Shown piece by piece: positions 13,149 to 57,608 of a DNA stretch of 64,000 bases. The notes under the pieces were generated by a model. It was not told where the DNA came from, searched no databases, and was given only the letters and a program-made list of their open reading frames with translations. Where the stretch lies: NCBI RefSeq assembly GCF_001697185.1, contig NZ_CP014224.1, positions 1,798,001 to 1,862,000 on the forward strand. The letters are read 5' to 3'. The position numbers and the translations under genes are program-made. Within the stretch, counting starts at the first letter, position 1, and every line of letters begins with the position of its first letter. The DNA is from Wenyingzhuangia fucanilytica. GTDB taxonomy: Bacteria > Bacteroidota > Bacteroidia > Flavobacteriales > Flavobacteriaceae.

Positions 13149-14318
13149 TTATTTCCAAATTATTTTAGCCTTTCTTGTTTCTGTATTTACCCAAACACTA
13201 GCATGTTCAAATTCACGAGTAAAATCCCAACCATTTGGATTGATTCGTTTGTAAGCATTTTTTGGTGCTCCAAGAGGTTTTTGTAACTCAGGATAATCTA
13301 CTAAAGGTCCTGTAGCCAACTTCCACCCCCAACTATACATAAAATACGAATAAGGTTGTGCTCCAATTAAATAACAAGCCAAAGCAAATTCTAACTTCTC
13401 TTTAGACAGTTCAGGCATATTAGGTTTAATATTTCCCCTTCCTGCTCCATCAACACCAAGACGAAAAACAGAAATTTTTCCTTCTTTAGCATTTTTTAAC
13501 ATATCTCCCCACTCACTTAATAAGCTTTCTTTAGTATATCTAGATTTTGAATAGTTTTCAAACATTACGGCATCACAAACCGGATACACATATCCTGCAT
13601 CTTTATTATTGGCATTATTACCTAGTAATATTTTATCTTCCCCCATTTTCTCCTTTAGTGCGGCCATCATTTCTCCCATAGCAATTTCAATTTTAGGTTT
13701 ATCTCCTTTTCGAAACCTACTATTTCCATGCATTTGATCTATAAAGACACCATCACAATCTGATTCCTTTACACCTTTAGCAACAGTTTCTACCCACCAC
13801 TCTCGGAATTCAGGATTTAATAAATCATAACAAAAAGCTCCAAAGTGATTTGCTAATTTTCCCGTTTTTGGGTTGGTAATCAAAAACTCTTTTAATTCTG
13901 GATGTTTCTTGATTCCTTTCTCTGAAAAATCTTTGGTATAAGAAGTATATGTCCAAGCATAAGCAGCATTAAAGTAAAACAATACTTTAATATTAGGGTT
14001 TGCTTTTTTAAAAGCCTTAGCCTCTGCTTTAGCTCCTAATTCAGCAGCTCCTAATTGTTTTTTCCCATGAGATTTTTCAATACAAATAAAATCGGTACGA
14101 GGTGCTATAAAAGCAACTTCCTTAGGTGTTAGTAAGCGATTTTTATCTTGAAACATAAAATACTGAGGAGTTGTTTCCCAACTAAATTTGGGATAAAAAT
14201 CTTTGGGTACAAAAATACTTCCATCACTATTTTTATAACTTACTTGTGAAACAACAGGATTAAAACCTGTAAAAATTATACAGAATAAAAATATTACGAG
14301 AACTTTTGTTTTTTTCAT
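13149..14318 (-). CDS. Candidate GH168-like endo-fucanase
   Basis: A 389-aa exported TIM-barrel-like protein with signal peptide at 1-25. Strand-end acids expected of a barrel glycosidase are visible: Asp194 in CDGVFIDQMHGN and Glu254 in CDAVMFENYSKS, 60 residues apart. From memory the founding GH168 enzyme (an endo-1,3-fucanase from Wenyingzhuangia fucanilytica) has similar size and a comparable Asp/Glu spacing. Other motifs are LFYFNAAYAWTYT, FCYDLLNPEFREWW and FRLGVDGAGRGN. No extra domains are present. Context among fucosidases and sulfatases fits an endo-acting sulfated-fucan hydrolase, probably periplasmic as it has no T9SS tail. The family call is by memory of motifs and needs a profile search; a generic GH-like (DUF) barrel is the alternative. 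Confidence 0.55.
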   Translation of the reverse strand: MKKTKVLVIFLFCIIFTGFNPVVSQVSYKNSDGSIFVPKDFYPKFSWETTPQYFMFQDKNRLLTPKEVAFIAPRTDFICIEKSHGKKQLGAAELGAKAEAKAFKKANPNIKVLFYFNAAYAWTYTSYTKDFSEKGIKKHPELKEFLITNPKTGKLANHFGAFCYDLLNPEFREWWVETVAKGVKESDCDGVFIDQMHGNSRFRKGDKPKIEIAMGEMMAALKEKMGEDKILLGNNANNKDAGYVYPVCDAVMFENYSKSRYTKESLLSEWGDMLKNAKEGKISVFRLGVDGAGRGNIKPNMPELSKEKLEFALACYLIGAQPYSYFMYSWGWKLATGPLVDYPELQKPLGAPKNAYKRINPNGWDFTREFEHASVWVNTETRKAKIIWK

Positions 14319-31637: not shown

Positions 31638-32775
31638 TTAATTTGTGTTTTTAACTATTTTTTTAACAACCGTAGCACCTAACTCTGTAATTCCTTTAAT
31701 AATGTAAACCCCAGAACTCAAATCTAAAATCTTAATACTTTGGGTTAGATTTGGATTTGTTTTCACAACTTTTCCACTAGTATTAATCACTTCCACAGAA
31801 TGAATTGGTATATTAAAATTGATTATATGGCTTGTGGGATTTGGATATACCTTAAAAGTTTGATTTTTTTCTGATGCTATGGTTGAGTTGGATAAATCAC
31901 CAACAACAATATTAAGAGATATTAATATCTCTTCTACAGACCATTTGTTTGTACTAGAATCGTTTCCTGTTCCTAAACTAAATTCAGTAATTTCATTAAT
32001 AGAGCTAACCGAATTTAAATCTATTTGCTGAGTTTGATTTCCTAACTTACCAAGATCAACAACTGTTTGATCAAATTTTAGAGAGACAAAGTCGTTGGTA
32101 GATTGTGCATTTACTATTGTTATGGCTTTAAAACTTAGGGTAAAATGATCTTCTGTTAAATCTCCTCCATTGGCATTAAAATCAACAATCTGTAAATTAT
32201 TAATACTTTCTACCCATTCATGATCACTACCTGTAAAAATGTCATCCATATTTGCATCAGTCCCATCCCCTAAACCCCACGAGTTTTGTGTAGAAGTTCC
32301 TCCTGATATTCCAGAAATAACTGCTTTATTACTTGGTGGAGTCACATCCATAGAAACTCTAAATGTAGCGTAACCATCAGGGGCTGTATAAACATCTGAA
32401 ATCATAACAGCTTTATTATTAAGACCATAATTAGTGTTTGATGATGCTTTAATTGCAATAGGATCGGCTTCTAACTCTTCATCAACTAGTAAATTAACTT
32501 CTCTAGTTCTTACACCACTAGCATCACTTGCTTGAAGTGAAAATGTATGGGTTGTTTCATTTGTTTCTGTTGGTGTACCTGAGAATGTCCATTCCCCTGG
32601 ACTTTTTTTTGTAATTTTTAACCAAGATGGAAAATTACCTAAAGCAATTACCTCTGTAATTTCATCTCCTTCAGGATCCCATAGATCTACCCCTTCTACA
32701 AGTACATGATGATAAGGAATTCCTATATGTGCTGGAGGTAAAACAGTATGTTGTCTTGCCCAATTAGGTGCTCCT
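31462..32775 (-). repeat. Duplicated 3' module, copy 1
   Basis: This segment covers the last 378 codons of the 982-aa enzyme gene plus about 175 bp downstream. It matches 34768-36072 closely, with only scattered substitutions, whereas the catalytic regions upstream are clearly divergent. The boundary falls in the PGAPNWARQH sequence. Confidence 0.9.
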
Positions 32776-34586
32776 GGATTTCCATATTGAACTAAATAAT
32801 CATCTAGTCCTTCTAAAAGAACATAGACCCAATCATAAATTGCTGTTTCTGCTCTATTAAAAGATCCACCCCACGTCATACTTCCTCCGGCTTGTATCGC
32901 TTCTAAGTTCCATTGATTGAAATCCGCTTGTTCCCATGCCTGATTAGGTCCATATTTCCATGCCGTTGTTGATAATTTTGAATGAAAATTCCCTACAATC
33001 TTATCGTCCCAATCCCAATTCCCACCTGCATGTACAAGTCCGTTGGTTTCTGTCATACGGGTTATATGTCGATAATTAAGGTTAAATTGATTTCCGTTTA
33101 TTTTTTCAGCATGATTATTATTACCTCCAAAAGCATGTCCAAATGTAAAATCTTCAAATCTAACAGCATGTGCAAAAGGGTAATCTTTATAATTCACTGT
33201 ACTCCTACCATTATTAAAAGCAATTGCAATATCTGGGTTACCAGCGTGCACAGCATTGGCATAAGCTTGATATATTCTTTGTTCTTCTACAACACCACTT
33301 GTCGCATTATCTCCATTTTGTTCCATAGTGGCACCATCATCAAAAATCCATGAATCAAAGTGTTCGCCGTAACGTAAAGCATAGTCTTTTAGAAAATATT
33401 CTGCATAACAAAACATATATTTTCTATTTGGATATGTAGCAGTAGCGTCTTCATATTGTTCGGTAGTTCTGTTCCAAATACCTGTATGATATGGTTGACT
33501 ATTAATAAAAGCCTGTACCTCTGGATCTGTATCACAATATTCCTTCCAACTATCTACAAAAGGCTGAAGATAATCTGCATTTGTACCTACAAAATTTTCT
33601 GAATTTGTGTAAGCCTTTACATTAAAACCGGCTGCTTTTATTTTTAAAATATCTGCTAGCATGTTATCATTATCTGGTGTATCTGAATTTAAATCTCCCC
33701 AAGACGGAGCAACTACATCTCCACCAGACAACCTATCAAACAATTTATGCGGCACTTTATGTTCTGCAGACAATACAGCTCCATTTGTAAAACTCACGCC
33801 TAAACGATTCAGTGTTTTAAGATTTTTTATCCTATCATCCAATAAATCTACAAGAATTTCAGAGTTCCAGGTTCCTCTTAAATTTACAGCGCGCTCTCCT
33901 AGTGCATATCTTTTTTCTAATGTAATTGATTGAATTGATTTACCATTATTACTCTGTCCATATACTGCAACATGATAATTTTTACTCAAATCAAATCCTT
34001 CTAATAATACGCCTGAATCTTCATAAATATCATTGATACGATAAGACCAATAACCTCCAATACCAATTTCAATAGTTACTTTAGTTATTCCCCCTTCACC
34101 AAACTGTGTTCTTGATCCAGATTCGTCCAAGGTAACACGTTCATTTCCATTAGTAAAATTTAATCCTCTAGCTGTAGCATCTTCATTTGTTGTTAAATTG
34201 GCTCCAATACTATAAACTGATTCATTTGCTCTAAAAGGATTAAACCCTAGATAAGAAGATAAGTTGGTTTCATCACTAATTAAACCAAAAGAGAAATTAT
34301 GTGAAACAACATCCTCTATGGACTCAGTGGTATATTCAATGGTTAACTTAAACCCATCTTCAGATTGGTAAGCTGATGTGGAGTAAATTAAAGCTCTATT
34401 TTGAAAATTACTACCATTGTTATTATATACAAAATCTCCATTTGATGACAAATCCCAAACAGCTCCACCTTCTATAGATAATACTTCACTTGACGATGTT
34501 TTATCATAAAATACTTGAGCCTGAATTATGTTGCTTAACAACAGTATGAAACAGAGTATTGTGAAAGATTTTTTTATGACATTCAT
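31638..34586 (-). CDS. T9SS-exported TIM-barrel-like enzyme, unassigned family (982 aa)
   Basis: Layout: signal peptide (1-23); lectin-like beta-sandwich (about 25-228); barrel-like domain (about 235-600); Ig-like domain (about 612-705, WDPEGDEI ... WTFSGTP); beta-rich module (about 708-905); T9SS type-A sorting domain (about 910-982, VYPNPTSHIINF ... GVYIIKG). In the barrel, SWIFDDG (Asp416/417) and FTFGHAFGG (His484) are conserved with the paralogue at 34934-37333 at identical 68-residue spacing. An Asp nucleophile plus His acid/base is known in GH107 endo-fucoidanases, so such a mechanism is possible, but the spacing differs from what I recall for GH107. A surface endo-fucanase is the best guess from context. 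I do not recognise the family. Confidence 0.6.
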   Translation of the reverse strand: MNVIKKSFTILCFILLLSNIIQAQVFYDKTSSSEVLSIEGGAVWDLSSNGDFVYNNNGSNFQNRALIYSTSAYQSEDGFKLTIEYTTESIEDVVSHNFSFGLISDETNLSSYLGFNPFRANESVYSIGANLTTNEDATARGLNFTNGNERVTLDESGSRTQFGEGGITKVTIEIGIGGYWSYRINDIYEDSGVLLEGFDLSKNYHVAVYGQSNNGKSIQSITLEKRYALGERAVNLRGTWNSEILVDLLDDRIKNLKTLNRLGVSFTNGAVLSAEHKVPHKLFDRLSGGDVVAPSWGDLNSDTPDNDNMLADILKIKAAGFNVKAYTNSENFVGTNADYLQPFVDSWKEYCDTDPEVQAFINSQPYHTGIWNRTTEQYEDATATYPNRKYMFCYAEYFLKDYALRYGEHFDSWIFDDGATMEQNGDNATSGVVEEQRIYQAYANAVHAGNPDIAIAFNNGRSTVNYKDYPFAHAVRFEDFTFGHAFGGNNNHAEKINGNQFNLNYRHITRMTETNGLVHAGGNWDWDDKIVGNFHSKLSTTAWKYGPNQAWEQADFNQWNLEAIQAGGSMTWGGSFNRAETAIYDWVYVLLEGLDDYLVQYGNPGAPNWARQHTVLPPAHIGIPYHHVLVEGVDLWDPEGDEITEVIALGNFPSWLKITKKSPGEWTFSGTPTETNETTHTFSLQASDASGVRTREVNLLVDEELEADPIAIKASSNTNYGLNNKAVMISDVYTAPDGYATFRVSMDVTPPSNKAVISGISGGTSTQNSWGLGDGTDANMDDIFTGSDHEWVESINNLQIVDFNANGGDLTEDHFTLSFKAITIVNAQSTNDFVSLKFDQTVVDLGKLGNQTQQIDLNSVSSINEITEFSLGTGNDSSTNKWSVEEILISLNIVVGDLSNSTIASEKNQTFKVYPNPTSHIINFNIPIHSVEVINTSGKVVKTNPNLTQSIKILDLSSGVYIIKGITELGATVVKKIVKNTN

Positions 34587-34933
34587 ATACTATTTTTCTT
34601 TTTTCTAAGTTTAAAGCTTAGGCTTCTCTACTACTAATATTTGGTTGCCTAATTTTACATTTAACAGACAACTCGTTATAGCTGCTTCACTTTAAAATAT
34701 GCAAATAGTAACATTCATGTGGTTTTCATATTTACACTCTCCTTTACTCATGTTACTTTCGGTTAAACAAAAATGCAACTACATAAATCAAATAGACATA
34801 CTCAAATCTCCCTTTTTAGTTTCTTTAATCAACTTTTTTCAGCAAAAAGCAATAAATTCATGTGTTTTACTAGTATTTACATAAAAAAAACATGTATTTA
34901 TTAGATATATCTAAACAAACCCTAATACAACTT
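34587..34933. other. Intergenic region with a duplicated 3' flank
   Basis: A 347-bp gap. The part from about 34768 to 34933 repeats 31462-31637. The part from 34587 to 34767 is unique and is the upstream region of the 982-aa gene. A near-consensus minus-strand -7 element (TACTATTTG, one base too long) lies around 34698-34706. Nothing else was recognised. Confidence 0.5.
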
Positions 34934-36072
34934 TTAATTTGTGTTTTTAACTATTTTTTTAACAACCGTAACACCTAACTCTGTAACTCCTTTAATAATG
35001 TAAACCCCAGAACTCAAATCTGAAATCTTAATGCTTTGGGTTAGATTTGGATTTATTTTCACAACTTTTCCACTAGTATTAATCACTTCCACAGAATGGA
35101 TTGGTATATTAAAATTGATTGTATGACTGGTAGGGCTTGGATATACCTTAAAACCTTGTTTTTTTTCTGATACTATGGTTGAGTTGGATAAATCACCAAC
35201 AACAAGATTAAGAGATATTAATATCTCTTCTACAGACCATTTGTTTGTACTTGAATCGTTTCCTGTTCCTAAACTAAATTCAGTAATTTCATTAATAGAA
35301 CTAACTGAATTTAAATCTATCTGCTGAGTTTGATTTCCTAATTTACCAAGATCAACAACTGTTTGATCAAATTTTAGAGAGACAAAGTCGTTGGTAGATT
35401 GTGCATTTACTATTGTTATGGCTTTAAAACTTAGGGTAAAATGATCTTCAGTTAAATCTCCTCCATTAGCATTAAAATCAACAATTTGTAAATTATTAAT
35501 ATTTTGTACCCATTCATTATCACTCCCTCTAAAAATAACATCCTGCGTACCATCAGTTCCATTACCAATACCCCATGAATTTTCTGTAGTAGTACCACCC
35601 GAAATCCCAGAAACAATTGCCTGATCTGTAGGTGGTGTAACATCCATAGAAACTCTAAATGTAGCATAACCATCAGGGGCAGTATAAACATCTGAAACCA
35701 TAACAGCTTTATTATTAAGACCATAATTAGTGTTTGATGATGCTTTAATTGCAATAGGATCGGCTTCTAACTCTTCATCAACTAATAAATTAACCACTCT
35801 AGTTCTTACACCACTAGCATCACTTGCTTGAAGTGAAAATGTATGGGTTGTTTCATTTGTTTCTGTTGGTGTACCTGAGAATGTCCATTCCCCTGGACTT
35901 TTTTCTGTAATTTTTAACCAAGATGGAAAATTACCTAAAGCAATTACCTCTGTAATTTCATCTCCTTCAGGATCCCATAAATCTACTCCTTCTACGAGTA
36001 CATGATGATAAGGAATTCCTATATGTGCAGGAGGTAAAACAGTATGCTGTCTTGCCCAATTGGGTGCTCCCG
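34768..36072 (-). repeat. Duplicated 3' module, copy 2
   Basis: The counterpart of 31462-32775. It covers the last 378 codons of the 799-aa enzyme gene and its downstream flank. The two modules are nearly identical at protein level, with clusters of change around the TDQAIVSGISGG segment. This pattern suggests duplication followed by replacement or conversion of one end. Confidence 0.9.
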
Positions 36073-37333
36073 GGTACTGAAATTCTTTTAAAAAATCATC
36101 TGTAAGTGTTAATTGGGTTAAAGCATAATCTCTTAATACAAGCTCTGGAGAGTTTTCTAGATTTGTTCTAATTAAAGGAGTTCCCCATGTAATAGCACCA
36201 CCATCAATAATCCCATTAGTTGTCCACTCTACAAATTGTTCATCTGTTAAACAAGGGGTACTTCCTGCATTCCAAGATGTTGAACTTTGTTTAGGAAAAA
36301 AATGTGATACTACTTTATCATTCCAATCTCTAGTATCATCTAAAAAAGCATCACCCGCATAATCTTGCATCCACTCAATAACATGATAGTTATATCTATA
36401 TAAAGTCTCATTCTCTACCATATTTCCCGCACCTCCAAAAGGGTGTCCAAAAGTATAATCATCAAAAAGTGTTGCTGTACTAAAAGGATTTTCTACCCTG
36501 TCTCCCACACTATTGTTAAAAGCAACTGCTGCATTTGGGTTTCCGGCATGCACAGCATTTGCAAATGCCTGATAGATTCTTTGATCTTCTACATTTTCAG
36601 AATCAGGGTTGTCTCCACACTCGTCTTCCATAATATTATCTGCAGAATCAAAGCACCAGGCATCAATTAAATCACCATAGCGAATAGCATATTCTTTAAG
36701 AATAAATTCTGCATAACAAAACATATAATAGCGCCTACCACTCCCGTTATGATACGTTTGGGTGTTCAAAAAAGCTTGAGCCTCAGCATTTGTATCACAC
36801 CATTCCATCCAACGGTCTGAAACATCTGGATATTCTGTCTGAGTATCTTCTGGATTTCTCGCTAATAAATTATAAGAATTTACATATATCTCTACTCTTA
36901 AACCCTCTGCCTTTAATGCTTTTAACCACCTTAACAATGGATCGTCTACTGATTCACGAGGAACTACTAAATTAATAGGATCTCCATTTGAATCTGTATC
37001 CCCTTCCCATAAACTTTCTATTATAGAATGAGGAGCTACATGTACAGGAGAAAAAATATTTGGACTTGTTAAAGGAAGTTGTACATAATCTATAGTTCTT
37101 AAATCTTTTACTTGAGAAATAAATTCATCTATTTCTACCCCCTCAATATTACCATTATAATTACGCTCTGGTAACCAAAGCAACCCTAAAGCACCTCGCA
37201 TCCAGTTTGCCCTTAGCCCCTGCTCTGGATTTAAAGCTGTTTGTGCTTGAGTAGTAAAAGATAATACCATTACACATACTGCTTGTAACAATATGAAAGT
37301 ATTATAATGTTTTTTTGATTTTATAGTTTTCAT
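34934..37333 (-). CDS. T9SS-exported TIM-barrel-like enzyme, unassigned family (799 aa)
   Basis: Paralogue of the 982-aa protein without its N-terminal lectin-like domain. Layout: signal peptide (1-31), barrel (about 35-415), Ig-like domain (about 430-520), beta-rich module (about 525-720), T9SS sorting domain (about 727-799). Conserved sites are YMFCYAEFILKEYAIRYG, AWCFDSAD (Asp229), FANAVHAGNPNAAVAFNNS and DDYTFGHPFGG (His297). The barrel is only moderately similar to its paralogue, but the C-terminal 378 residues are nearly identical. It should be exported and attached at the surface, where it may cut the polymer into pieces for SusD/SusC. It starts the middle transcription unit, after a terminator at 37381-37434. 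Confidence 0.6.
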   Translation of the reverse strand: MKTIKSKKHYNTFILLQAVCVMVLSFTTQAQTALNPEQGLRANWMRGALGLLWLPERNYNGNIEGVEIDEFISQVKDLRTIDYVQLPLTSPNIFSPVHVAPHSIIESLWEGDTDSNGDPINLVVPRESVDDPLLRWLKALKAEGLRVEIYVNSYNLLARNPEDTQTEYPDVSDRWMEWCDTNAEAQAFLNTQTYHNGSGRRYYMFCYAEFILKEYAIRYGDLIDAWCFDSADNIMEDECGDNPDSENVEDQRIYQAFANAVHAGNPNAAVAFNNSVGDRVENPFSTATLFDDYTFGHPFGGAGNMVENETLYRYNYHVIEWMQDYAGDAFLDDTRDWNDKVVSHFFPKQSSTSWNAGSTPCLTDEQFVEWTTNGIIDGGAITWGTPLIRTNLENSPELVLRDYALTQLTLTDDFLKEFQYPGAPNWARQHTVLPPAHIGIPYHHVLVEGVDLWDPEGDEITEVIALGNFPSWLKITEKSPGEWTFSGTPTETNETTHTFSLQASDASGVRTRVVNLLVDEELEADPIAIKASSNTNYGLNNKAVMVSDVYTAPDGYATFRVSMDVTPPTDQAIVSGISGGTTTENSWGIGNGTDGTQDVIFRGSDNEWVQNINNLQIVDFNANGGDLTEDHFTLSFKAITIVNAQSTNDFVSLKFDQTVVDLGKLGNQTQQIDLNSVSSINEITEFSLGTGNDSSTNKWSVEEILISLNLVVGDLSNSTIVSEKKQGFKVYPSPTSHTINFNIPIHSVEVINTSGKVVKINPNLTQSIKISDLSSGVYIIKGVTELGVTVVKKIVKNTN

Positions 37334-37473: not shown

Positions 37474-38412
37474 TTACTCTACTACTATTCTAGCTGTTGC
37501 TACAACGTTTTTAGATTCGATTACTACAATATATACTCCAGAAGCAAGTCCTGACACTTCTAATACATCAGAAGCACCAAAAGTTTTTACAGTTTTACCT
37601 GTAATGTCTATAATTTTTAAAGTATCAAATTCTTTATTAACATAGAAAGCTCCATCTGTTACTGTTGGGTAAATAGTTAAAGTTTTATCATTTTTATTAA
37701 TTGTATTTACTCCAAGAGTAGTATCATCTAAAGTAACTTGAACAGTTAAACTCTGTACTGACCAAGCATCGCTACCTGCAGATGTTCTAGTAGATCCAGA
37801 TCTAATAATTAGCGTAGTAATAGAAGACAAAGCTGGGTCAATAGCTACAGCACCTGTACCATAAGATCTTAAATCAATAGTAGCTGGGTTCTCAGTAAAC
37901 TTAGAAGAACTAATATACTCTGTCTCACCTATTTGATAAGTAAATCTATCTTGATTATTTGTTGCTCCAGCAATCACTGCATCTGTAAAAGTATACGATT
38001 GTATATTACTTTCTGACAATGTACCTGTGAAATTAGAATATGTAATATTCGAAATAGTACAAAACGATGCTTGATTCCCTCTAAAAAGTGCACTAGCAGT
38101 ATCAGCAACAACACCCCATGAACCATCTTCACCTTTCATAACTTTTAGCCCCGACCCAGGTGTTACAGTAAATGTTACATCAAACGAACCTTCACCAGCT
38201 ACTGTAGCAGTACCAGTCATGGTAACAACTTCGTCAGTGGCATAAGATTGATAGCTCAGAAACCCTCCTTCACCATCACTATCTAAAGTGACTGCTCCTT
38301 GTGTAATCACTGCATCTACAGTAGTTTGCGCCTGTACACTTGTAAATCCTGTTAAAATTGCTACTATCGCAATTCCTTTTTTAATGTTTTTTAATGTGTA
38401 AGTTTTAATCAT
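37474..38412 (-). CDS. Small T9SS protein related to the C-terminal module of the two enzymes
   Basis: A 312-aa protein with signal peptide (about 1-28), a single beta-rich domain (about 30-235) and a T9SS type-A sorting domain (about 240-312, TIYPTVTDGAFYV ... GVYIVVIESKNV). The domain follows the same order of motifs as the enzymes' module: a GSFDVTFTVTP strand, a GSWGV segment, then SSITTLIIRSGS ... SDAWSVQSLTVQVTL, compared with SINEITEFSLGTG ... NKWSVEEILISLN. It has no catalytic domain. It may be a free-standing surface glycan-binding protein helping capture the polymer. Similarity is judged by eye; identity is low. Confidence 0.55.
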   Translation of the reverse strand: MIKTYTLKNIKKGIAIVAILTGFTSVQAQTTVDAVITQGAVTLDSDGEGGFLSYQSYATDEVVTMTGTATVAGEGSFDVTFTVTPGSGLKVMKGEDGSWGVVADTASALFRGNQASFCTISNITYSNFTGTLSESNIQSYTFTDAVIAGATNNQDRFTYQIGETEYISSSKFTENPATIDLRSYGTGAVAIDPALSSITTLIIRSGSTRTSAGSDAWSVQSLTVQVTLDDTTLGVNTINKNDKTLTIYPTVTDGAFYVNKEFDTLKIIDITGKTVKTFGASDVLEVSGLASGVYIVVIESKNVVATARIVVE

Positions 38413-48557: not shown

Positions 48558-48700
48558 CTTTATATTGAGGGCAATAAAAAACATATTTTATGATTCATGT
48601 ATTTGTGGTAAAATAAAGAATAGACACTTTTAAATATGATTCTAAATGTATTATTGTACTTTGTATAAAAACCTATTATTATAAACTAAAAATTAATGTG

Positions 48701-51700
48701 ATGAAAAAAACTACTCTACTAATTTTTTTATTTATTGCTGGGCTGCTTTCAGCGCAGACAACTAGCATCCCCGATCCTAATTTTGAGCAAGCTCTTATTA
48801 ATTTAGGGCTCGATTCAGGAACTGTTGATGGTACCGTGCCAACAGCTAATATCAATAACTTAACAAGTTTAAATGTTTCTGACATGGGTATTAGTAATCT
48901 TACAGGTATAGGAGATTTTGTTGCCCTAACAAATTTGGACTGTTCTCTAAATAGTTTAAGCACATTGAATTTAAGTGCCAATACAGCAATTGAAATTTTA
49001 AATCTTTCTGAAAATGATTTAAACACATTAGACCTAAGTGCCAATACAGCAATTACAGATTTAGATCTTTCTAACAATAACTTCTCTACATTAAATCTAA
49101 GTGCTAATACAGCGATTACTACATTAAATGCTGAGGAGAATAATATAAACACATTAGATTTAAGCACCAATACAGCAATTGAATTTTTAAATCTTTCTGA
49201 CAATGAATTATCTACATTAGATCTAAGTGCCAATACAGCGATTAAAGCATTAGATCTTTCTTACAATGACTTCTCTACATTAAATCTAAGTACCAATACA
49301 GCCATTGAAGAGTTATCGATTCATAATAATCTATTATCCGCATTAAATCTAAGTACTAATACAGCAATTATAGGATTAAGCCTTTCTGAAAATAGTTTAA
49401 CCTCATTGGATTTAAGTGCCAATACAGCAATTATAGATTTAAATGTTAACAATAATCAATTAACATCATTGAATATAAGTGGCAATACAGCACTTACAAC
49501 GTTACTTGCTGAGGAGAATCTATTAACATCATTGGATTTAAGTACCAATACAGCAATTACAGATTTATATGTTAACAATAATCAATTAACCGCATTGGAT
49601 TTAAGTACCAATACAGCGATTACTACATTAAATGCTCAGCAGAATCAATTAACCTCATTGAACATAAGTGGAAATTCAGTACTTACAGATTTAAGTGTTT
49701 ATGATAATCAATTAACCACATTAGATTTAAGTACCAATACAGCAATTATAAATTTAAGTGTTTATGAGAATCAATTAACCGCATTGAATTTAAGTGCCAA
49801 TACAGCGATTACTACATTAAATGTTGATGATAATCAATTAACTTCATTGGATTTAAGTACCAATACAGCAATTACAGAATTATATGCTACACACAATCTA
49901 TTAACATCATTGAATATAAGTGGCAATACAACACTTACAACGTTACATCTTCATCACAATCAATTAACCGCATTGGATTTAAGTACCAATACAGCAATTA
50001 CAGAATTACATGTTAGCACTAATCAATTAACCGCATTGGATTTAAGTGCCAATACAGCAATTACAGATTTAGATGTTGAAAAGAATCAATTAACCGCATT
50101 GGATTTAAGTGCCAATACAGCGATTACTTCATTAATTGCTGAGGAAAATCTATTAACCTCATTGAATTTAAGTGCCAATACAGCACTTACAGAATTAAAT
50201 CTTGAAGATAATCAATTCTCCACATTAGATTTAAGTACCAATACAGCGATTGAATATTTATACCTTTCTGAGAATCAATTAACCGCATTAGATTTAAGTA
50301 CCAATACAGCAATTATAAATTTAAGTGTTTATGAGAATCAATTAACCGCATTGAATTTAAGTGCCAATACAGCACTTAAAAGTTTAGATGTTAACACTAA
50401 TCAATTAACCACATTAGATTTAAGTACCAATACAGCGATTACAGATTTAGATGTTAACAATAATCAATTAGACGCATTAGATTTAAGTAACAATACAGCT
50501 ATTGAATATTTATACCTTTCTGATAATCAATTAGACGCATTTGATTTAAGTGCCAATACAGCGCTTATTGAGTTATATATTAATGATAATGAATTAACCA
50601 CATTAGATTTAAGAAATGGAGCCAATCAGAGTTTAACAGCTATGAATGCTACAAACAATCCTGATTTAACCTGTATCTTTGTGGATAGCAAAACCTATGC
50701 TGATACCAATTTTACAAATGTAGATGCTACAGCTAATTTTATGGAGACTGACCAAGAATGCTCCCTGAATTATACACAGATTCCTGATGCTAATTTTGAG
50801 CAAGCTCTTATTAATTTGGGACACGATTCAGGACCTATTGATGGTAAGGTGTATACAGCTAATATCAATGTCTTAACGAGTTTAGATGTTTCTAATACTA
50901 GCATTAGTGATCTTACAGGTATTGAGGATTTTGTGGCACTAACAAGTTTGAACTGTTCTAACAACAGTTTAACTACTTTGGATTTGAATACTAATACAGT
51001 ACTTACAAGTTTAACTGCTAATAACAATCAATTAACCACATTGGATATAAAAAATGGTAATAATCAGAATTTTACAACGATGAATGCCACTAATAATCCT
51101 AACTTAACCTGTATCTTTGTGGACGACCATACCTATGCAAAGGCCAATTTTACCGATGTAGATGGTGCAGCTAGCTTTTTGGAAACTAAAGCTGAATGTG
51201 GTCTTTATACCACTATCCTAGATGCTAATTTTGAGCAAGCTCTTATTGATTTAGGACACGATTCTGGATCTGTTGATGGTGCAGTGCCAACAGCTAATAT
51301 CAATACCTTAACTAGTTTAGATGTTTCTGTTAGTAATATTAGTGATCTTACAGGTATAGAAGCTTTTGTAGCATTAACAAATTTAGACTGTTCTGAAAAC
51401 AGTATAACTACATTGGATTTAAGTGCCAATACAGCAATTACAGAATTATATCTATATAATAACAGTTTAACCACATTAGATTTAAGTACCAATACAGCGA
51501 TTGAAGTTTTAGACCTTTCTATTAATCAAATCTTTTCATTAGATTTAAGTACCAATACAGCACTTACAGAATTAGACCTTTCTGAAAATCAATTAGACAT
51601 ATTAGATCTAAGTGCCAATACAGCGCTTGAAGAGTTAAGACTTCATGATAATCAATTTACCGCATTAAATCTAAGTAGCAATACAGCACTTACAGAATTA

Positions 51701-52714
51701 GATCTTGAAGATAATCAATTAACAACCTTAGATTTAAGTGCCAATACAGCCATTATAGAATTATATATTCAAGACAATCAATTAACATCATTAAATATAA
51801 GTGGTAATACTGCACTTACAGATTTAAATGTTAATAATAATAAACTTACCTCATTGGATTTAAGTACCAATACAGCACTTACAGATTTATATGTTGACCA
51901 GAATCAATTAACCGCATTGGATTTAAGTGCCAATACAGCGATTACTACATTAAATGCTCAGGAGAATCTATTAACCTCATTAAACATAAGTGGTAATACA
52001 GTAATTACAAAATTATATATTGAAAATAACCAATTCTCCACATTAGATTTAAGCACCAATACTGCACTTACACATTGTTATGTTAACAATAATCTATTAA
52101 CCTCATTGAATTTAAGTGCCAATACAGCGCTTGTAGATTTAAAACTTCATGAAAATCAATTAACCACATTGAACTTAAGTGCCAATTCAGCCATTAAAGA
52201 GTTATTGATTAATAATAATCAATTAACTTCATTGGATATAAGTAATACGGATATTGTAGTATTAGACGTATCTAATAATCAATTAACCACATTAGATCTA
52301 AGAAATGGTTTAAATGATCTTATGAATGATTTTGTGTTTGATGCTACTAACAATCCTGACTTAACTTGTATCTTTGTGGATAGCAAAACCTATGCAGAAG
52401 CCACTTATACAAATGTAGATGCTACGGCTAATTTTGTAGAGACTGAAGCTGAATGTAATACTTTATCTATTGATGACGATGTATTATTAGAGAGTGATGT
52501 AGAAATTTATCCTATACCAGCAAAAGATGTTATTTATGTAAAAACAAGTTTGCCTACTACTAAACTTGAGATCTACTCAGCTTCAGGAAAAAGAGTTTAT
52601 GAAACTACAAACTTCACTACTATTAATGTAAGCAAGCTTAATTCTGGTGTATATTTCATTAGACTGTATATGGAAAATGGAAGTTTTGTTAATAAAAGAA
52701 TTGTAATAGAATAA
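48701..52714 (+). CDS. Leucine-rich-repeat T9SS surface protein, copy 1
   Basis: A 1337-aa exported protein. I place the start at ATG 48701 (MKKTTLLIFLFIAG...), not the GTG just before it, and the duplicate has the same context. After the signal come three blocks, each an N-terminal cap (IPDPNFEQALINLGLDSG, TANIN.LTSLNV), an array of about 21-residue LRRs of the type LDLSTNTAITDLYVNNNQLT, and a Cys-containing cap (NNPDLTCIFVDSKTYA). Block 1 has roughly 26 repeats, block 2 very few, block 3 about 17. A T9SS type-A sorting domain ends it (IYPIPAKDVIYV ... GVYFIRLYMENG). Probably an adhesin or binding protein at the surface; the ligand is unknown. The link to the PUL is only positional. Confidence 0.9.
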   Translation: MKKTTLLIFLFIAGLLSAQTTSIPDPNFEQALINLGLDSGTVDGTVPTANINNLTSLNVSDMGISNLTGIGDFVALTNLDCSLNSLSTLNLSANTAIEILNLSENDLNTLDLSANTAITDLDLSNNNFSTLNLSANTAITTLNAEENNINTLDLSTNTAIEFLNLSDNELSTLDLSANTAIKALDLSYNDFSTLNLSTNTAIEELSIHNNLLSALNLSTNTAIIGLSLSENSLTSLDLSANTAIIDLNVNNNQLTSLNISGNTALTTLLAEENLLTSLDLSTNTAITDLYVNNNQLTALDLSTNTAITTLNAQQNQLTSLNISGNSVLTDLSVYDNQLTTLDLSTNTAIINLSVYENQLTALNLSANTAITTLNVDDNQLTSLDLSTNTAITELYATHNLLTSLNISGNTTLTTLHLHHNQLTALDLSTNTAITELHVSTNQLTALDLSANTAITDLDVEKNQLTALDLSANTAITSLIAEENLLTSLNLSANTALTELNLEDNQFSTLDLSTNTAIEYLYLSENQLTALDLSTNTAIINLSVYENQLTALNLSANTALKSLDVNTNQLTTLDLSTNTAITDLDVNNNQLDALDLSNNTAIEYLYLSDNQLDAFDLSANTALIELYINDNELTTLDLRNGANQSLTAMNATNNPDLTCIFVDSKTYADTNFTNVDATANFMETDQECSLNYTQIPDANFEQALINLGHDSGPIDGKVYTANINVLTSLDVSNTSISDLTGIEDFVALTSLNCSNNSLTTLDLNTNTVLTSLTANNNQLTTLDIKNGNNQNFTTMNATNNPNLTCIFVDDHTYAKANFTDVDGAASFLETKAECGLYTTILDANFEQALIDLGHDSGSVDGAVPTANINTLTSLDVSVSNISDLTGIEAFVALTNLDCSENSITTLDLSANTAITELYLYNNSLTTLDLSTNTAIEVLDLSINQIFSLDLSTNTALTELDLSENQLDILDLSANTALEELRLHDNQFTALNLSSNTALTELDLEDNQLTTLDLSANTAIIELYIQDNQLTSLNISGNTALTDLNVNNNKLTSLDLSTNTALTDLYVDQNQLTALDLSANTAITTLNAQENLLTSLNISGNTVITKLYIENNQFSTLDLSTNTALTHCYVNNNLLTSLNLSANTALVDLKLHENQLTTLNLSANSAIKELLINNNQLTSLDISNTDIVVLDVSNNQLTTLDLRNGLNDLMNDFVFDATNNPDLTCIFVDSKTYAEATYTNVDATANFVETEAECNTLSIDDDVLLESDVEIYPIPAKDVIYVKTSLPTTKLEIYSASGKRVYETTNFTTINVSKLNSGVYFIRLYMENGSFVNKRIVIE
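48950..50620 (+). repeat. 63-bp coding repeats (LRR array), copy 1
   Basis: About 26 tandem units of 63 bp encode LxLSxNTAIxxLxVxxNQLTx. Many neighbouring units are nearly identical in DNA (GATTTAAGTACCAATACAGC recurs), so slippage or unequal recombination can change repeat number. A second array is at about 51400-52330 within the same gene. Confidence 0.85.
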
Positions 52715-52754
52715 TTTTTTAACAAACTAGTTTTCATTACAATGTTATAAAAGC

Positions 52755-52817
52755 CTCTCTACTTTTAGAGAGATTACATAAAAAAAGGAGTAGGAATTAA
52801 TTTTCTACTCCTTTTTT
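52755..52817 (+). terminator. Terminator of LRR gene 1
   Basis: A small stem (52755-52761 with 52766-52772) is followed by a perfect 13-bp stem: AAAAAAGGAGTAG (52781-52793) pairs with CTACTCCTTTTTT (52805-52817), ending in a T-run. It lies about 65 bp past the stop codon and is conserved after copy 2. Confidence 0.88.
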
Positions 52818-52944
52818 CTTTTTGTATATATTCTTATTTCTAGTAAATAAAGGAGTTTTAAAAAATTATAAAATAAGTAAACAGGATAAATTCAAAAGTC
52901 AACCTATTTTTAGGAAAACAGAAACCATAAGAAACTAAAAGATG

Positions 52945-52952
52945 TATATTTG
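52945..52952 (+). promoter_or_regulatory. Putative -7 box of LRR gene 2
   Basis: TATATTTG at the same distance from the start codon as in copy 1. It matches the Bacteroidota TAnnTTTG element; -33 is not evident. Confidence 0.35.
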
Positions 52953-53095
52953 CTTTATATTGAGGGCAATAAAAAACATATTTTATGATTCATGTATTTG
53001 TGGTAAAAAAAGAATAAACACTTTTATATATGATTCTAAAATGTATTATTGTACTTTGTATAAAAACCTATTATTATAAACTAAAAATTAATGTG

Positions 53096-55582
53096 ATGAA
53101 AAAAACTACTCTACTAATTTTTTTATTTATTGCTGGGCTGCTTTCAGCGCAGACAACTAGCATCCCCGATCCTAATTTTGAGCAAGCTCTTATTAATTTA
53201 GGGCTCGATTCAGGAACTGTTGATGGTACCGTGCCAACAGCTAATATCAATAACTTAACAAGTTTAAATGTTTCTGACATGGGTATTAGTAATCTTACAG
53301 GTATAGGAGATTTTGTTGCCCTAACAAATTTGGACTGTTCTCTAAATAGTTTAAGCACATTGAATTTAAGTGCCAATACAGCAATTGAAATTTTAAATCT
53401 TTCTGAAAATGATTTAAACACATTAGACCTAAGTGCCAATACAGCAATTACAGATTTAGATCTTTCTGACAATAACTTCTCTACATTAAATCTAAGTGCT
53501 AATACAGCGATTACTACATTAAATGCTGAGGAGAATAATATAAACACATTAGATTTAAGCACCAATACAGCAATTGAATTTTTAAATCTTTCTGACAATG
53601 AATTATCTACATTAGATCTAAGTGCCAATACAGCGATTAAAGCATTAGATCTTTCTTACAATGACTTCTCTACATTAAATCTAAGTACCAATACAGCCAT
53701 TGAAGAGTTATCGATTCATAATAATCTATTATCCGCATTAAATCTAAGTACTAATACAGCAATTATAGGATTAAGCCTTTCTGAAAATAGTTTAACCTCA
53801 TTGGATTTAAGTGCCAATACAGCAATTATAGATTTAAATGTTAACAATAATCAATTAACATCATTGAATATAAGTGGAAATACAGCACTTACAACGTTAC
53901 TTGCTGAGGAGAATCTATTAACATCATTGGATTTAAGTACCAATACAGCAATTACAGATTTATATGTTAACAATAATCAATTAACCGCATTGGATTTAAG
54001 TACCAATACAGCGATTACTACATTAAATGCTCAGCAGAATCAATTAACCTCATTGAACATAAGTGGAAATTCAGTACTTACAGATTTAAGTGTTTATGAT
54101 AATCAATTAACCACATTAGATTTAAGTACCAATACAGCAATTATAAATTTAAGTGTTTATGAGAATCAATTAACCGCATTGAATTTAAGTGCCAATACAG
54201 CGATTACTACATTAAATGTTGATGATAATCAATTAACTTCATTGGATTTAAGTACCAATACAGCAATTACAGAATTAAAAGTTACACACAATCTATTAAC
54301 ATCATTGAATATAAGTGGCAATACAACACTTACAACGTTAAATCTTCATCACAATCAATTAACCACATTGGATTTAAGTACCAATACAGCAATTACAGAT
54401 TTAGATGTTAGCACTAATCAATTAACCGCATTGGATTTAAGTACCAATACAGCGATTACTTCATTAAGTGCTGATAAGAATCTATTAACCTCATTGAACA
54501 TAAGTGGCAATACAGTACTTACAGAATTAAATCTTGAAGATAATCAATTCTCCACATTAGATTTAAGTACCAATACAGCGATTGAATATTTACACCTTTC
54601 TGAGAATCAATTAACCGCATTAGATTTAAGTACCAATACAGCAATTATAAATTTAAGTGTTTATGAGAATCAATTAACCGCATTGAATTTAAGTGCCAAT
54701 ACAGCACTTAAAAGTTTAGATGTTAACTCTAATCAATTAACCACATTAGATTTAAGTACCAATACAGCAATTACAGATTTAGATGTTAGCACTAATCAAT
54801 TAACCACATTAGATTTAAGTACCAATACAGCAATTACAGATTTAGATGTTAGCACTAATCAATTAACCGCATTGAATTTAAGTGCCAATACAGCAATTAC
54901 AGATTTAGATGTTAGCACTAATCAATTAACCACATTAGATTTAAGTACCAATACAGCGATTACAGATTTATATGTTAACAATAATCAATTAGACGCATTA
55001 GATTTAAGTAACAATACAGCTATTGAATATTTATACCTTTCTGATAATCAATTAGACGCATTTGATTTAAGTGCCAATACAGCGCTTATTGAGTTATATA
55101 TTAATGATAATGAATTAACCACATTAGATTTAAGAAATGGTGCCAATCAGAGTTTAACAGCTATGGATGCTACAAACAATCCTGATTTAACCTGTATCTT
55201 TGTGGATAGCAAAACCTATGCTGATACCAATTTTACAAATGTAGATGCTACAGCTAATTTTATGGAGACTGACCAAGAATGCTCCCTGAATTATACACAG
55301 ATTCCTGATGCTAATTTTGAGCAAGCTCTTATTAATTTGGGACACGATTCAGGACCTATTGATGGTAAGGTGTATACAGCTGATATCAATGTCTTAACGA
55401 GTTTAGATGTTTCTAATACTAGCATTAGTGATCTTACAGGTATTGAGGATTTTGTGGCACTAACAAGTTTGAACTGTTCTAACAACAGTTTAACTACTTT
55501 GGATTTGAATACTAATACAGTACTTACAAGTTTAACTGCTAATGACAATCAATTAACCACATTGGATATAAAAAAATGGTAA
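53096..55582 (+). CDS. LRR surface protein copy 2, 5' part before frameshift
   Basis: An 828-aa open frame from ATG 53096; a longer frame from 53030 only adds leader codons not conserved with copy 1. It has the signal peptide, cap and first LRR array as in copy 1. In the middle it differs: several DLDVSTNQLT repeats occur in a row around 54720-54960. It ends early at KKW-stop because a run of seven A (55570-55576) replaces the six A at 51049-51054 of copy 1. The product lacks the T9SS sorting domain and would not be anchored. Either the gene is broken, or the A-run switches expression, or it is a base-calling error. The continuation is the next entry. Confidence 0.85.
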   Translation: MKKTTLLIFLFIAGLLSAQTTSIPDPNFEQALINLGLDSGTVDGTVPTANINNLTSLNVSDMGISNLTGIGDFVALTNLDCSLNSLSTLNLSANTAIEILNLSENDLNTLDLSANTAITDLDLSDNNFSTLNLSANTAITTLNAEENNINTLDLSTNTAIEFLNLSDNELSTLDLSANTAIKALDLSYNDFSTLNLSTNTAIEELSIHNNLLSALNLSTNTAIIGLSLSENSLTSLDLSANTAIIDLNVNNNQLTSLNISGNTALTTLLAEENLLTSLDLSTNTAITDLYVNNNQLTALDLSTNTAITTLNAQQNQLTSLNISGNSVLTDLSVYDNQLTTLDLSTNTAIINLSVYENQLTALNLSANTAITTLNVDDNQLTSLDLSTNTAITELKVTHNLLTSLNISGNTTLTTLNLHHNQLTTLDLSTNTAITDLDVSTNQLTALDLSTNTAITSLSADKNLLTSLNISGNTVLTELNLEDNQFSTLDLSTNTAIEYLHLSENQLTALDLSTNTAIINLSVYENQLTALNLSANTALKSLDVNSNQLTTLDLSTNTAITDLDVSTNQLTTLDLSTNTAITDLDVSTNQLTALNLSANTAITDLDVSTNQLTTLDLSTNTAITDLYVNNNQLDALDLSNNTAIEYLYLSDNQLDAFDLSANTALIELYINDNELTTLDLRNGANQSLTAMDATNNPDLTCIFVDSKTYADTNFTNVDATANFMETDQECSLNYTQIPDANFEQALINLGHDSGPIDGKVYTADINVLTSLDVSNTSISDLTGIEDFVALTSLNCSNNSLTTLDLNTNTVLTSLTANDNQLTTLDIKKW
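53345..55130 (+). repeat. 63-bp coding repeats (LRR array), copy 2
   Basis: The array corresponds to that of copy 1 but with a different set of units in its second half, including three almost identical neighbouring units ending in VSTNQLT. This fits repeat gain or shuffling after the gene duplication. Confidence 0.85.
55570..55576 (+). other. Seven-A tract with frameshift
   Basis: Copy 1 reads GATAT followed by six A then TGG; copy 2 has seven A. Removing one A restores a single frame through to 57608. This is the only interruption seen in the gene. Confidence 0.9.
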
Positions 55583-55601
55583 TAATCAGAATTTTACAAC
55601 G

Positions 55602-57608
55602 ATGAATGCCACTAATAACCCTAACTTAACCTGTATCTTTGTGGACGACCATACCTATGCAAAGGCCAATTTTACCGATGTAGATGGTGCAGCTAGCTTT
55701 TTGGAAACTAAAGCTGAATGTGGTCTTTATACCGCTATCCCCGATGCTAATTTTGAGCAAGCTCTTATTGATTTAGGACACGATTCTGGATCTGTTGATG
55801 GTGGAGTGCCAACAGCTAATATCAATACCTTAACTAGTTTAAATGTTTCTGTTAGTAATATTAGTGATCTTACGGGTATAGAAGCTTTTGTAGCATTAAC
55901 AAATTTAGACTGTTCTATAAACAGTTTAACCACATTGGATTTAAGTACCAATACAGCAATTACAGAATTAGACCTTTCTGAAAATCAAATAACCACATTA
56001 GATTTAAGTAACAATACAGCGATTACAGAATTATATCTACATGAAAACAGTTTAACCACATTGGATTTAAGTGCAAATACAGCGCTTGAAAAGTTATTTG
56101 TTAGTGATAATCAAATAAGTGCATTGAATCTAAGTAACAATACAGCTATTACAGAGTTAGGTCTGTCTAATAATCTATTCATGACATTAGATCTAAGTGC
56201 CAATACAGCGATTACAAATTTATATGTTGACACTAATCAATTAACCGCATTGGATCTAAGTACCAATACAGCGATTGCAATATTAGATGCTAATGATAAT
56301 CAAATAACCACATTGGATTTAAGTACCAATACAGCCATTACAGAATTAAATCTTAATAATAATAAATTAACCGAGTTAGATATAAGTGCCAATACAGCCA
56401 TTACAAAATTAAGTGTTAATAATAATTTCTTAAGCACATTGGATCTGTGGACCAGTACATATCTTACAGAATTAGATGTTAGTAATAATAAATTAACATC
56501 CTTGGATCTAAGAAATGGTGTTAATCAGAATTTTACAACGATGGTTGCTACAAACAATCCTGATTTGAGCTGTATCTTTGTGGATAGCAAAACCTATGCA
56601 GAATCTAACTTTACAAATGTAGATGCTACGGCTAGTTTTATGGAAACTTTACAAGAATGCACTCAATTATATACACAAATTCCTGATTCCAACTTCGAGG
56701 ATGTATTAAAGGATTTAGGTTATGATTCTGGAACACGAGATGGTCTAGTTCTAACAGCTAACATTAGTGGTGTAACGTCTTTAAATGTTTATAGAGAGAA
56801 TATTAATTCTCTTGAGGGTATAGAGGCTTTTACTTCTCTTACCGAGTTAAACTGTATTGAGAACCATTTGACAGCCTTGGATCTGAGTAGTAATACAGCA
56901 TTGACCTCTCTGTACTGTGCTGATAACAATTTAGATGCCTTAGACGTGAGTAGTAATACGGCACTAGAAGTATTGAGTTGTGGTGGCAACAATTTAGACG
57001 CCTTAAATGTGAGTAATAATACGGCACTAACAACTTTGAGTTGTAATAACAATAGTATAAATGCTTTAGATGTGAGTAGTAATACAGCACTAACAACTTT
57101 GAGCTGTGATAATAACAGTTTAACTGCCTTAGACCTGAGTAGTAACACGGCACTGACTGAGTTATACTGTTCTGATAATAGTTTGAGTACTTTAGATCTA
57201 AGAAATGGTGCCAATTCGAGTTTAACAGCTATGAATGCCACAAACAACTCTAGCTTAACCTGTATCTTTGTGGATAGCAAAACATATGCAGAAGCCAATT
57301 TTACAAATATAGATGCTACAGCTAATTTTGTAGAGACTGAAGCTGAATGTAATACTTTATCTATTGATGACGATGTATTATTAGAGAGTGATATAGAAAT
57401 TTATCCTATACCAGCAAAAGATGTTATTTATGTAAAAACAAGTTTGCCTACTACTAAACTTGAGATCTACTCAGCTTCAGGAAAAAGAGTTTATGAAAGT
57501 ACAAACTTCACTACTATTAATGTAAGTAAGCTTAATTCTGGTGTATATTTCATTAGACTGTATATGGAAAATGGAAGTTTTGTTAATAAAAGAATTGTAA
57601 TAGAATAA
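55602..57608 (+). CDS. LRR surface protein copy 2, 3' part after frameshift
   Basis: A 668-aa open frame in the shifted frame. The first ATG (55602) is internal to the cap motif MNATNNPNLTCIF, so it is not a natural start and no signal peptide is present. It contains a third LRR block and a fourth block absent from copy 1 (cap IPDSNFEDVLKDLGYDSG; repeats of the type LDVSSNTALTTLSCNNNS). It ends with the same T9SS sorting domain as copy 1. The fourth block has a Cys in the repeat core, and its DNA is less AT-rich in wobble positions, suggesting a different origin. Joined with the 5' part the protein would be about 1500 aa. Confidence 0.85.
   Translation: MNATNNPNLTCIFVDDHTYAKANFTDVDGAASFLETKAECGLYTAIPDANFEQALIDLGHDSGSVDGGVPTANINTLTSLNVSVSNISDLTGIEAFVALTNLDCSINSLTTLDLSTNTAITELDLSENQITTLDLSNNTAITELYLHENSLTTLDLSANTALEKLFVSDNQISALNLSNNTAITELGLSNNLFMTLDLSANTAITNLYVDTNQLTALDLSTNTAIAILDANDNQITTLDLSTNTAITELNLNNNKLTELDISANTAITKLSVNNNFLSTLDLWTSTYLTELDVSNNKLTSLDLRNGVNQNFTTMVATNNPDLSCIFVDSKTYAESNFTNVDATASFMETLQECTQLYTQIPDSNFEDVLKDLGYDSGTRDGLVLTANISGVTSLNVYRENINSLEGIEAFTSLTELNCIENHLTALDLSSNTALTSLYCADNNLDALDVSSNTALEVLSCGGNNLDALNVSNNTALTTLSCNNNSINALDVSSNTALTTLSCDNNSLTALDLSSNTALTELYCSDNSLSTLDLRNGANSSLTAMNATNNSSLTCIFVDSKTYAEANFTNIDATANFVETEAECNTLSIDDDVLLESDIEIYPIPAKDVIYVKTSLPTTKLEIYSASGKRVYESTNFTTINVSKLNSGVYFIRLYMENGSFVNKRIVIE

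Follow-up and report, generated by a model that had tools for sequence, protein, structure and literature searches.

The two open reading frames at 31638-34586 (982 aa) and 34934-37333 (799 aa), both on the minus strand of the 64-kb window (the whole stretch of DNA analysed), almost certainly encode FWf3 and FWf4 of Wenyingzhuangia fucanilytica, T9SS-exported endo-1,4-alpha-L-fucanases of GH107. The evidence for this identity is the match of residue numbers and gene order, together with one protein that is identical. FWf3 and FWf4 are already known as enzymes of GH107 and as tools for cutting fucoidan; judged by their sequences, both proteins belong to this family and found no new one. They are not a lead to a new family. 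A testable lead is a clade of GH107 with an altered active-site wall, the only characterised member of which is linked to the cutting of 2,4-disulfated blocks.

The assignment to GH107 comes from direct matches to MfFcnA. In a phmmer search of PDB sequences (E<=1), the 799-aa protein matched three MfFcnA chains (6dlh, 6dms and 6dns), with a best E of 1.6e-272 to 6dlh, and the 982-aa protein matched the same three chains, with a best E of 3.9e-107, also to 6dlh. These were the only matches at this threshold to span either catalytic domain; of the other four rows for each protein, one is a sorting-tail chain and the rest are chance matches. The MfFcnA motifs given in the Mef1 paper as the GH107 nucleophile (DAWCFD) and acid/base (DYTFGH) align with Asp416/Asp229 and His484/His297, respectively, and in 6dms a Gln stands opposite the catalytic His of both proteins. 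A GH107 enzyme should resemble a characterised member in its D1 domain and should carry an Asp nucleophile and a His acid/base. Both proteins resemble MfFcnA in this domain, and both carry the Asp and His, which are aligned in 34/34 of the catalytic domains compared. From homology to 6dlh, we predict that the catalytic domains are (beta/alpha)8 barrels.

The preliminary description had noted the Asp pair (416/229) and His pair (484/297) and likened them to GH107 chemistry, and the alignment bears this out. The spacing is 68 residues in each protein, and because the two catalytic domains can be aligned over their whole length (39% protein identity), the equal spacing reflects inheritance rather than chance. 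The description also could not match the sequences to GH107, GH168, GH174 or GH187, called the domain unassigned and suggested that the two proteins might found or extend an endo-fucanase family. The domain looked unassigned because no Pfam or NCBIfam model covers either catalytic domain, save for one weak chance row; this, and the clear divergence of the 982-aa protein from MfFcnA, would favour a new family. Against it stand the direct sequence matches to GH107 structures, by which we ruled it out, the agreement with GH107 in the catalytic and -1 subsite residues and the listing of FWf3 and FWf4 as GH107 in print, so that a new family has next to no probability. The strong match did come from a well-characterised family, but its substrate is the one that had been guessed rather than another. 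The PDB sequences searched include GH168 chains, none of which matched either protein at E<=1, nor was an Alpha_L_fucos (GH29) domain found in either at E<=1 (the GH29 gene of the window scores 1.5e-80), and membership of GH168 and GH29 was ruled out on these grounds. The plasmid collection gave no match.

Both proteins are modular, and all features are on the minus strand. FWf3 begins with an apparent signal peptide read by eye from the sequence (aa 1-24; 34515-34586), followed by an N-terminal module (aa 25-228; 33903-34514) and the catalytic domain (aa 226-605; 32772-33911), which is supported by the phmmer match, the alignment with FWf4 and the tree described below. Asp416 (33339-33341) aligns with the GH107 nucleophile and His484 (33135-33137) with the acid/base. 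An Ig-like domain (approximately aa 603-702; 32481-32780; He_PIG E=3.1e-5 at 640-694) aligns by phmmer with repeats of 6dlh, and is followed by a beta-module (aa 702-911; 31854-32483; 90% identical to that of FWf4 in the alignment) and a T9SS type A sorting tail (aa 913-980; 31647-31850; TIGR04183 E=1.1e-10). In FWf4, alignment to 6dlh and FWf3 places the catalytic domain at aa 32-425 (36059-37240), with Asp229 (36647-36649) and His297 (36443-36445) aligned with the nucleophile and acid/base. The Ig-like domain (approximately aa 420-518; 35780-36076; He_PIG E=3.2e-5 at 457-511), beta-module (aa 519-728; 35150-35779) and T9SS type A sorting tail (aa 730-797; 34943-35146; TIGR04183 E=5.4e-9) follow. 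The Ig-like domain and T9SS tail described earlier correspond to Pfam and NCBIfam models in both proteins, with a beta-rich module predicted between them by structure modelling.

Published numbering ties the genes to named enzymes. A review table gives the catalytic pairs as Asp229/His297 for FWf4, Asp401/His469 for FWf3, Asp464/His537 for FWf2 and 226/294 for FWf1. We counted 229/297 in the 799-aa protein, 416/484 in the 982-aa protein and 464/537 in an 883-aa protein of the same genome (L004). The printed FWf3 numbers are ours minus 15, which fits translation beginning at codon 16, a TTG. Such a start would drop most of the apparent signal peptide begun at the ATG (34515-34586). The FWf1 gene (L003) has its pair at 225/293 counted from the second Met; the printed 226/294 are MfFcnA's own numbers, as given in the Mef1 paper, and may have been copied from that enzyme into the review table.

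Gene order agrees. In published listings FWf3 is AXE80_07420 (ANW96115.1), FWf4 is AXE80_07425 (ANW96116.1) and the GH168 enzyme FWf5 is AXE80_07365. The window has a GH168 gene at 13149-14318 (minus strand; E to 1.7e-154 against GH168 fucanases in the PDB) that locus-tag arithmetic places in the FWf5 position, and when ORFs of 180 aa or longer are counted from that gene, the eleventh is the 982-aa gene and the twelfth the 799-aa gene, in agreement with the two tags. Counting by GenBank protein numbers is off by one at FWf3 and was dropped, as these numbers are not contiguous along the locus (e.g., ANW97461.1 for Wf141_4). A sulfatase gene at 3291-4778 (minus strand) matches SWF1 in its length of 495 aa and in Asp40, Asp41, Asp282 and Asn283, the length and four positions published for that enzyme. 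A GH168 paralogue encoded by this genome is identical to PDB 9joc, which the review gives as Fun168D of W. fucanilytica, at 363/363 aligned residues. A GH168 paralogue elsewhere in the genome (L045; G000:C1:2206164-2207249) has an internal TAA stop. The window is part of one contig of 3,427,057 bases that carries four GH107 genes, two of them approximately 4 to 9 kb before the window; W. fucanilytica CZ1127T is reported to have the same number, surrounded by a fucoidan locus. Because residue numbers, locus tags and gene order match, we conclude that the locus is from CZ1127T or a near-identical strain.

It could be argued that the genes belong to a sister species and are close homologues of FWf3 and FWf4, given that two further genomes of the genus were among those compared. 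Neither of these two has a GH107 match at E<=0.001, however, and the 799-aa protein shares only about 60% identity with the enzyme of Wenyingzhuangia sp. 2_MG-2023, whereas here residue numbers, lengths and locus-tag spacing match and Fun168D is identical throughout the aligned residues. A sister species is therefore very improbable, and we treat the genes below as FWf3 and FWf4.

The primary papers on FWf3 and FWf4 are said to be those of Zueva from 2020 and 2023, and the review credits alpha-1,4 cleavage by FWf3 to Zueva and colleagues. A paper dated December 2025 calls both previously characterised endo-1,4-alpha-L-fucanases. According to that paper, treatment of Fucus evanescens fucoidan with FWf3 leaves a regular 2-sulfated polymer (HMP-W3), and treatment with FWf4 leaves HMP-W4, enriched in 2,4-disulfation. 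Another paper places FWf4 among the enzymes acting on fucoidans in which 2- and 2,3-di-sulfated fucose alternate, and FWf4, Mef1 and FWf5 are reported to leave 2,4-disulfated blocks. Because of the two residual polymers, we suggest that FWf3 would remove 2,4-disulfated stretches and FWf4 2-sulfated stretches, and that the enzymes are probably complementary.

The genes lie in a fucan PUL, as had been proposed. The window encodes GH29, GH95, GH141 and GH168 enzymes, sulfatases, SusC/SusD and a hybrid two-component regulator. The expectation that its secreted enzymes are endo-fucanases also holds, their activity being reported in print. Once exported to the cell surface, FWf3 and FWf4 would be the first to cut brown-algal fucoidan internally, with the catalytic Asp attacking the sulfated fucosyl bond and the His serving as acid/base (roles proposed for GH107 in print and assigned here by alignment). 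Sulfatases and the GH29 and GH95 fucosidases could then finish the pieces. The shared tail of Ig-like domain, beta-module and sorting signal would anchor the enzymes and probably hold them to the substrate. Adjoining the PUL are three neighbouring LRR_4-rich proteins (48698-57608, plus strand), two with T9SS tails.

FWf3 belongs to a distinct group within GH107. We compared 34 catalytic domains, four from this genome and 30 from 22 of 23 related loci, leaving out duplicate loci and three partial ORFs, two of L030 and one at the edge of L013. In the resulting tree, FWf3 falls in a clade of 11 members (support 100/100) from Bacteroidota, Verrucomicrobiota, Kiritimatiellota and Pseudomonadota. 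The residue beside the Trp of the -1 subsite is Ser in all 11, within the motif NxHSKL, and Pro in the other 23/23 domains, so that FWf4 keeps a Pro that FWf3 lacks. The Mef1 paper calls this Pro conserved in all aligned fucoidanases, and it occupies 10/10 rows of its table; this is a regularity that has been remarked on and does not define GH107. For the other -1 subsite residues, taken from the same table, the Tyr, first Asn and Trp are present in 34/34 domains and the second Asn in 30/34 (Gln in four, FWf1 among them); FWf3 and FWf4 have all of them. The tree program warned that the long branch of FWf2 may be wrongly drawn toward the FWf3 clade, but FWf2 has the Pro and sits outside it. In the survey of genomes, only two candidates were scored per genome, which makes its GH107 negatives weak; in six of these genomes a recheck with the FWf4 catalytic domain confirmed the absence.

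No paper on an FWf3-type subfamily was evident in the literature listings and abstract openings searched, which covered few subscription journals. New here, as computational results, are the Pro-to-Ser clade, the predicted lectin-like nature of the FWf3 N-terminal module, the restriction of the beta-module within this genome to this locus and the near-identical tails of the two genes. The change from Pro to Ser in 11/11 members, and the shorter loops of the FWf3 catalytic domain in alignment with FWf4, could also mean that FWf3 is GH107 by descent yet is no longer an alpha-1,4 fucanase, its -1 subsite having changed. The literature, however, treats FWf3 as a characterised endo-1,4-fucanase, which makes a loss of this activity highly unlikely, and we retain FWf3 as an endo-1,4-fucanase with a modified -1 wall.

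The C-terminal regions of the two enzymes are much more similar than their catalytic domains. From aa 604 of FWf3 and aa 421 of FWf4 to approximately 170-180 bases beyond the stop codons, the genes are 92.2% identical in DNA over 1322 aligned columns, whereas FWf3 aa 240-599 and FWf4 are 25-60% identical in protein per 40-residue block. A tail that is 92% identical in DNA behind diverged catalytic domains suggests that the tail was copied recently from one of the adjacent genes to the other. In a tree of beta-modules, those of FWf3 and FWf4 are both placed next to the tail of a Polaribacter relative of FWf3 (support 92/84, not starred), a hint that FWf3 may have been the donor.

Two accessory module families occur beside fucan-degrading enzymes in the genomes searched. 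The L-type lectin fold is typical of sugar-binding domains, and the N-terminal module of FWf3 is predicted to be lectin-like: its AlphaFold2 model (pLDDT 89.4) resembles an L-type-lectin jelly roll, and Foldseek matched it to legume and L-type lectins, with 346 chains at E<=0.001 and a best E of 3.2e-7 (query TM-scores of approximately 0.4-0.7 in the 50 matches listed). The same module is found at the head of FWf2 and is repeated C-terminally in some relatives. Pfam has no family for the FWf3 module at E<=0.1; among the 17 members scanned, three families turned up in one member each (best E=0.013), which we read as chance, and nothing among PDB sequences matched at E<=1. The AlphaFold2 model of the FWf4 beta-module (pLDDT 87.2) has no Foldseek match at E<=0.001 (best E=6.9e-3, low TM-scores); the matches to CBM8, CBM35 and CBM29 are too weak for one to be named as its fold. 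For the FWf4 module itself Pfam has no family at E<=0.1, and two Pfam families that appear, each in one of 25 members (best E=0.024), are likewise read as chance; across both modules, Pfam and PDB sequences returned scattered rows only (E of 0.013 or weaker).

Profiles of both modules, built from neighbours of GH107 loci so that distant copies in other settings could escape them, find the N-terminal module at two places in this genome and the beta-module at four, all within the fucoidan locus. At E<=1e-6, 2/397 genomes of the family have the N-terminal module and 4/397 the beta-module, this genome included in each count. Three of the four beta-module genomes also have GH107. In the fourth, which lacks it, a stand-alone copy has a SusC-type receptor on one side and a GH29 fucosidase on the other, and two sulfatases lie further along. 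A stand-alone beta-module with a T9SS tail (TIGR04183) is also encoded directly 5' of FWf4, in a 312-aa exported protein (37474-38412, minus strand). Its module is approximately 25% identical to those of FWf3 and FWf4 by blastp and scores 1.1e-41 with the profile, its own sequence being among the 25 in that profile. In 6/23 related loci (L019, L024, L025, L026, L028 and L029), an FWf4-like enzyme likewise has a similar protein immediately 5' of it, encoded on the same strand with fewer than 200 bases separating the frames. Two proteins, of 711 aa (L010) and 708 aa (L020), carry the beta-module between an AXE1-type esterase domain (E=6.3e-13 in the former, 4.4e-12 in the latter) and a T9SS tail. 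The accessory modules may bind fucoidan. A small fucosidase/sulfatase locus of another genome (G389) encodes a 795-aa T9SS-tailed protein (L062:11885-14272) in which Pfam at E<=1e-5 matches nothing but the tail and which has no PDB match at E<=0.01; it is a candidate for an undescribed exported enzyme.

A broader reading, which we hold tentatively and consider somewhat more apt to fail in some part than to stand whole, is that FWf3 represents a separate GH107 subfamily spread over four phyla, in which the -1 wall NxHSKL in place of the Pro-bearing FFPKQ or xPPM types would fit 2,4-disulfated fucoidan; that the N-terminal lectin-like module and the beta-module would be two undescribed fucoidan-binding families; and that the stand-alone protein would be a T9SS-exported surface glycan-binding protein.

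The published FWf3 (ANW96115.1) and FWf4 (ANW96116.1) of W. fucanilytica CZ1127T agree with the genes described here in locus tags, gene order and residue numbers, apart from the FWf3 numbering, which is 15 lower in print. GH107 members of solved structure have a barrel catalytic domain. MfFcnA of Mariniflexile fucanivorans (6dlh) shares the catalytic domain, nucleophile, acid/base, Ig-like domains and T9SS tail, and its alignment covers FWf4 aa 2-518; it is described with three Ig-like repeats, whereas FWf4 and FWf3 have one each. FWf3 differs from MfFcnA in its additional N-terminal module, in its shorter loops and in having Ser in place of the Pro on the -1 side. FWf2 (AXE80_07310, same genome, outside the window) has the same N-terminal lectin-like module as FWf3, but unlike FWf3 it keeps the Pro, has an Asp-His spacing of 73 and lacks the beta-module. 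Mef1, P5AFcnA, Mef2, Fda1 and Fda2, of a distant GH107 branch, gave no row among the single-sequence phmmer matches of FWf3 and FWf4 at E<=1, and some of them are reported to cut alpha-1,3 bonds; in the table of the Mef1 paper, they have the active-site Asp/His, Tyr, Asn, Trp and Pro.
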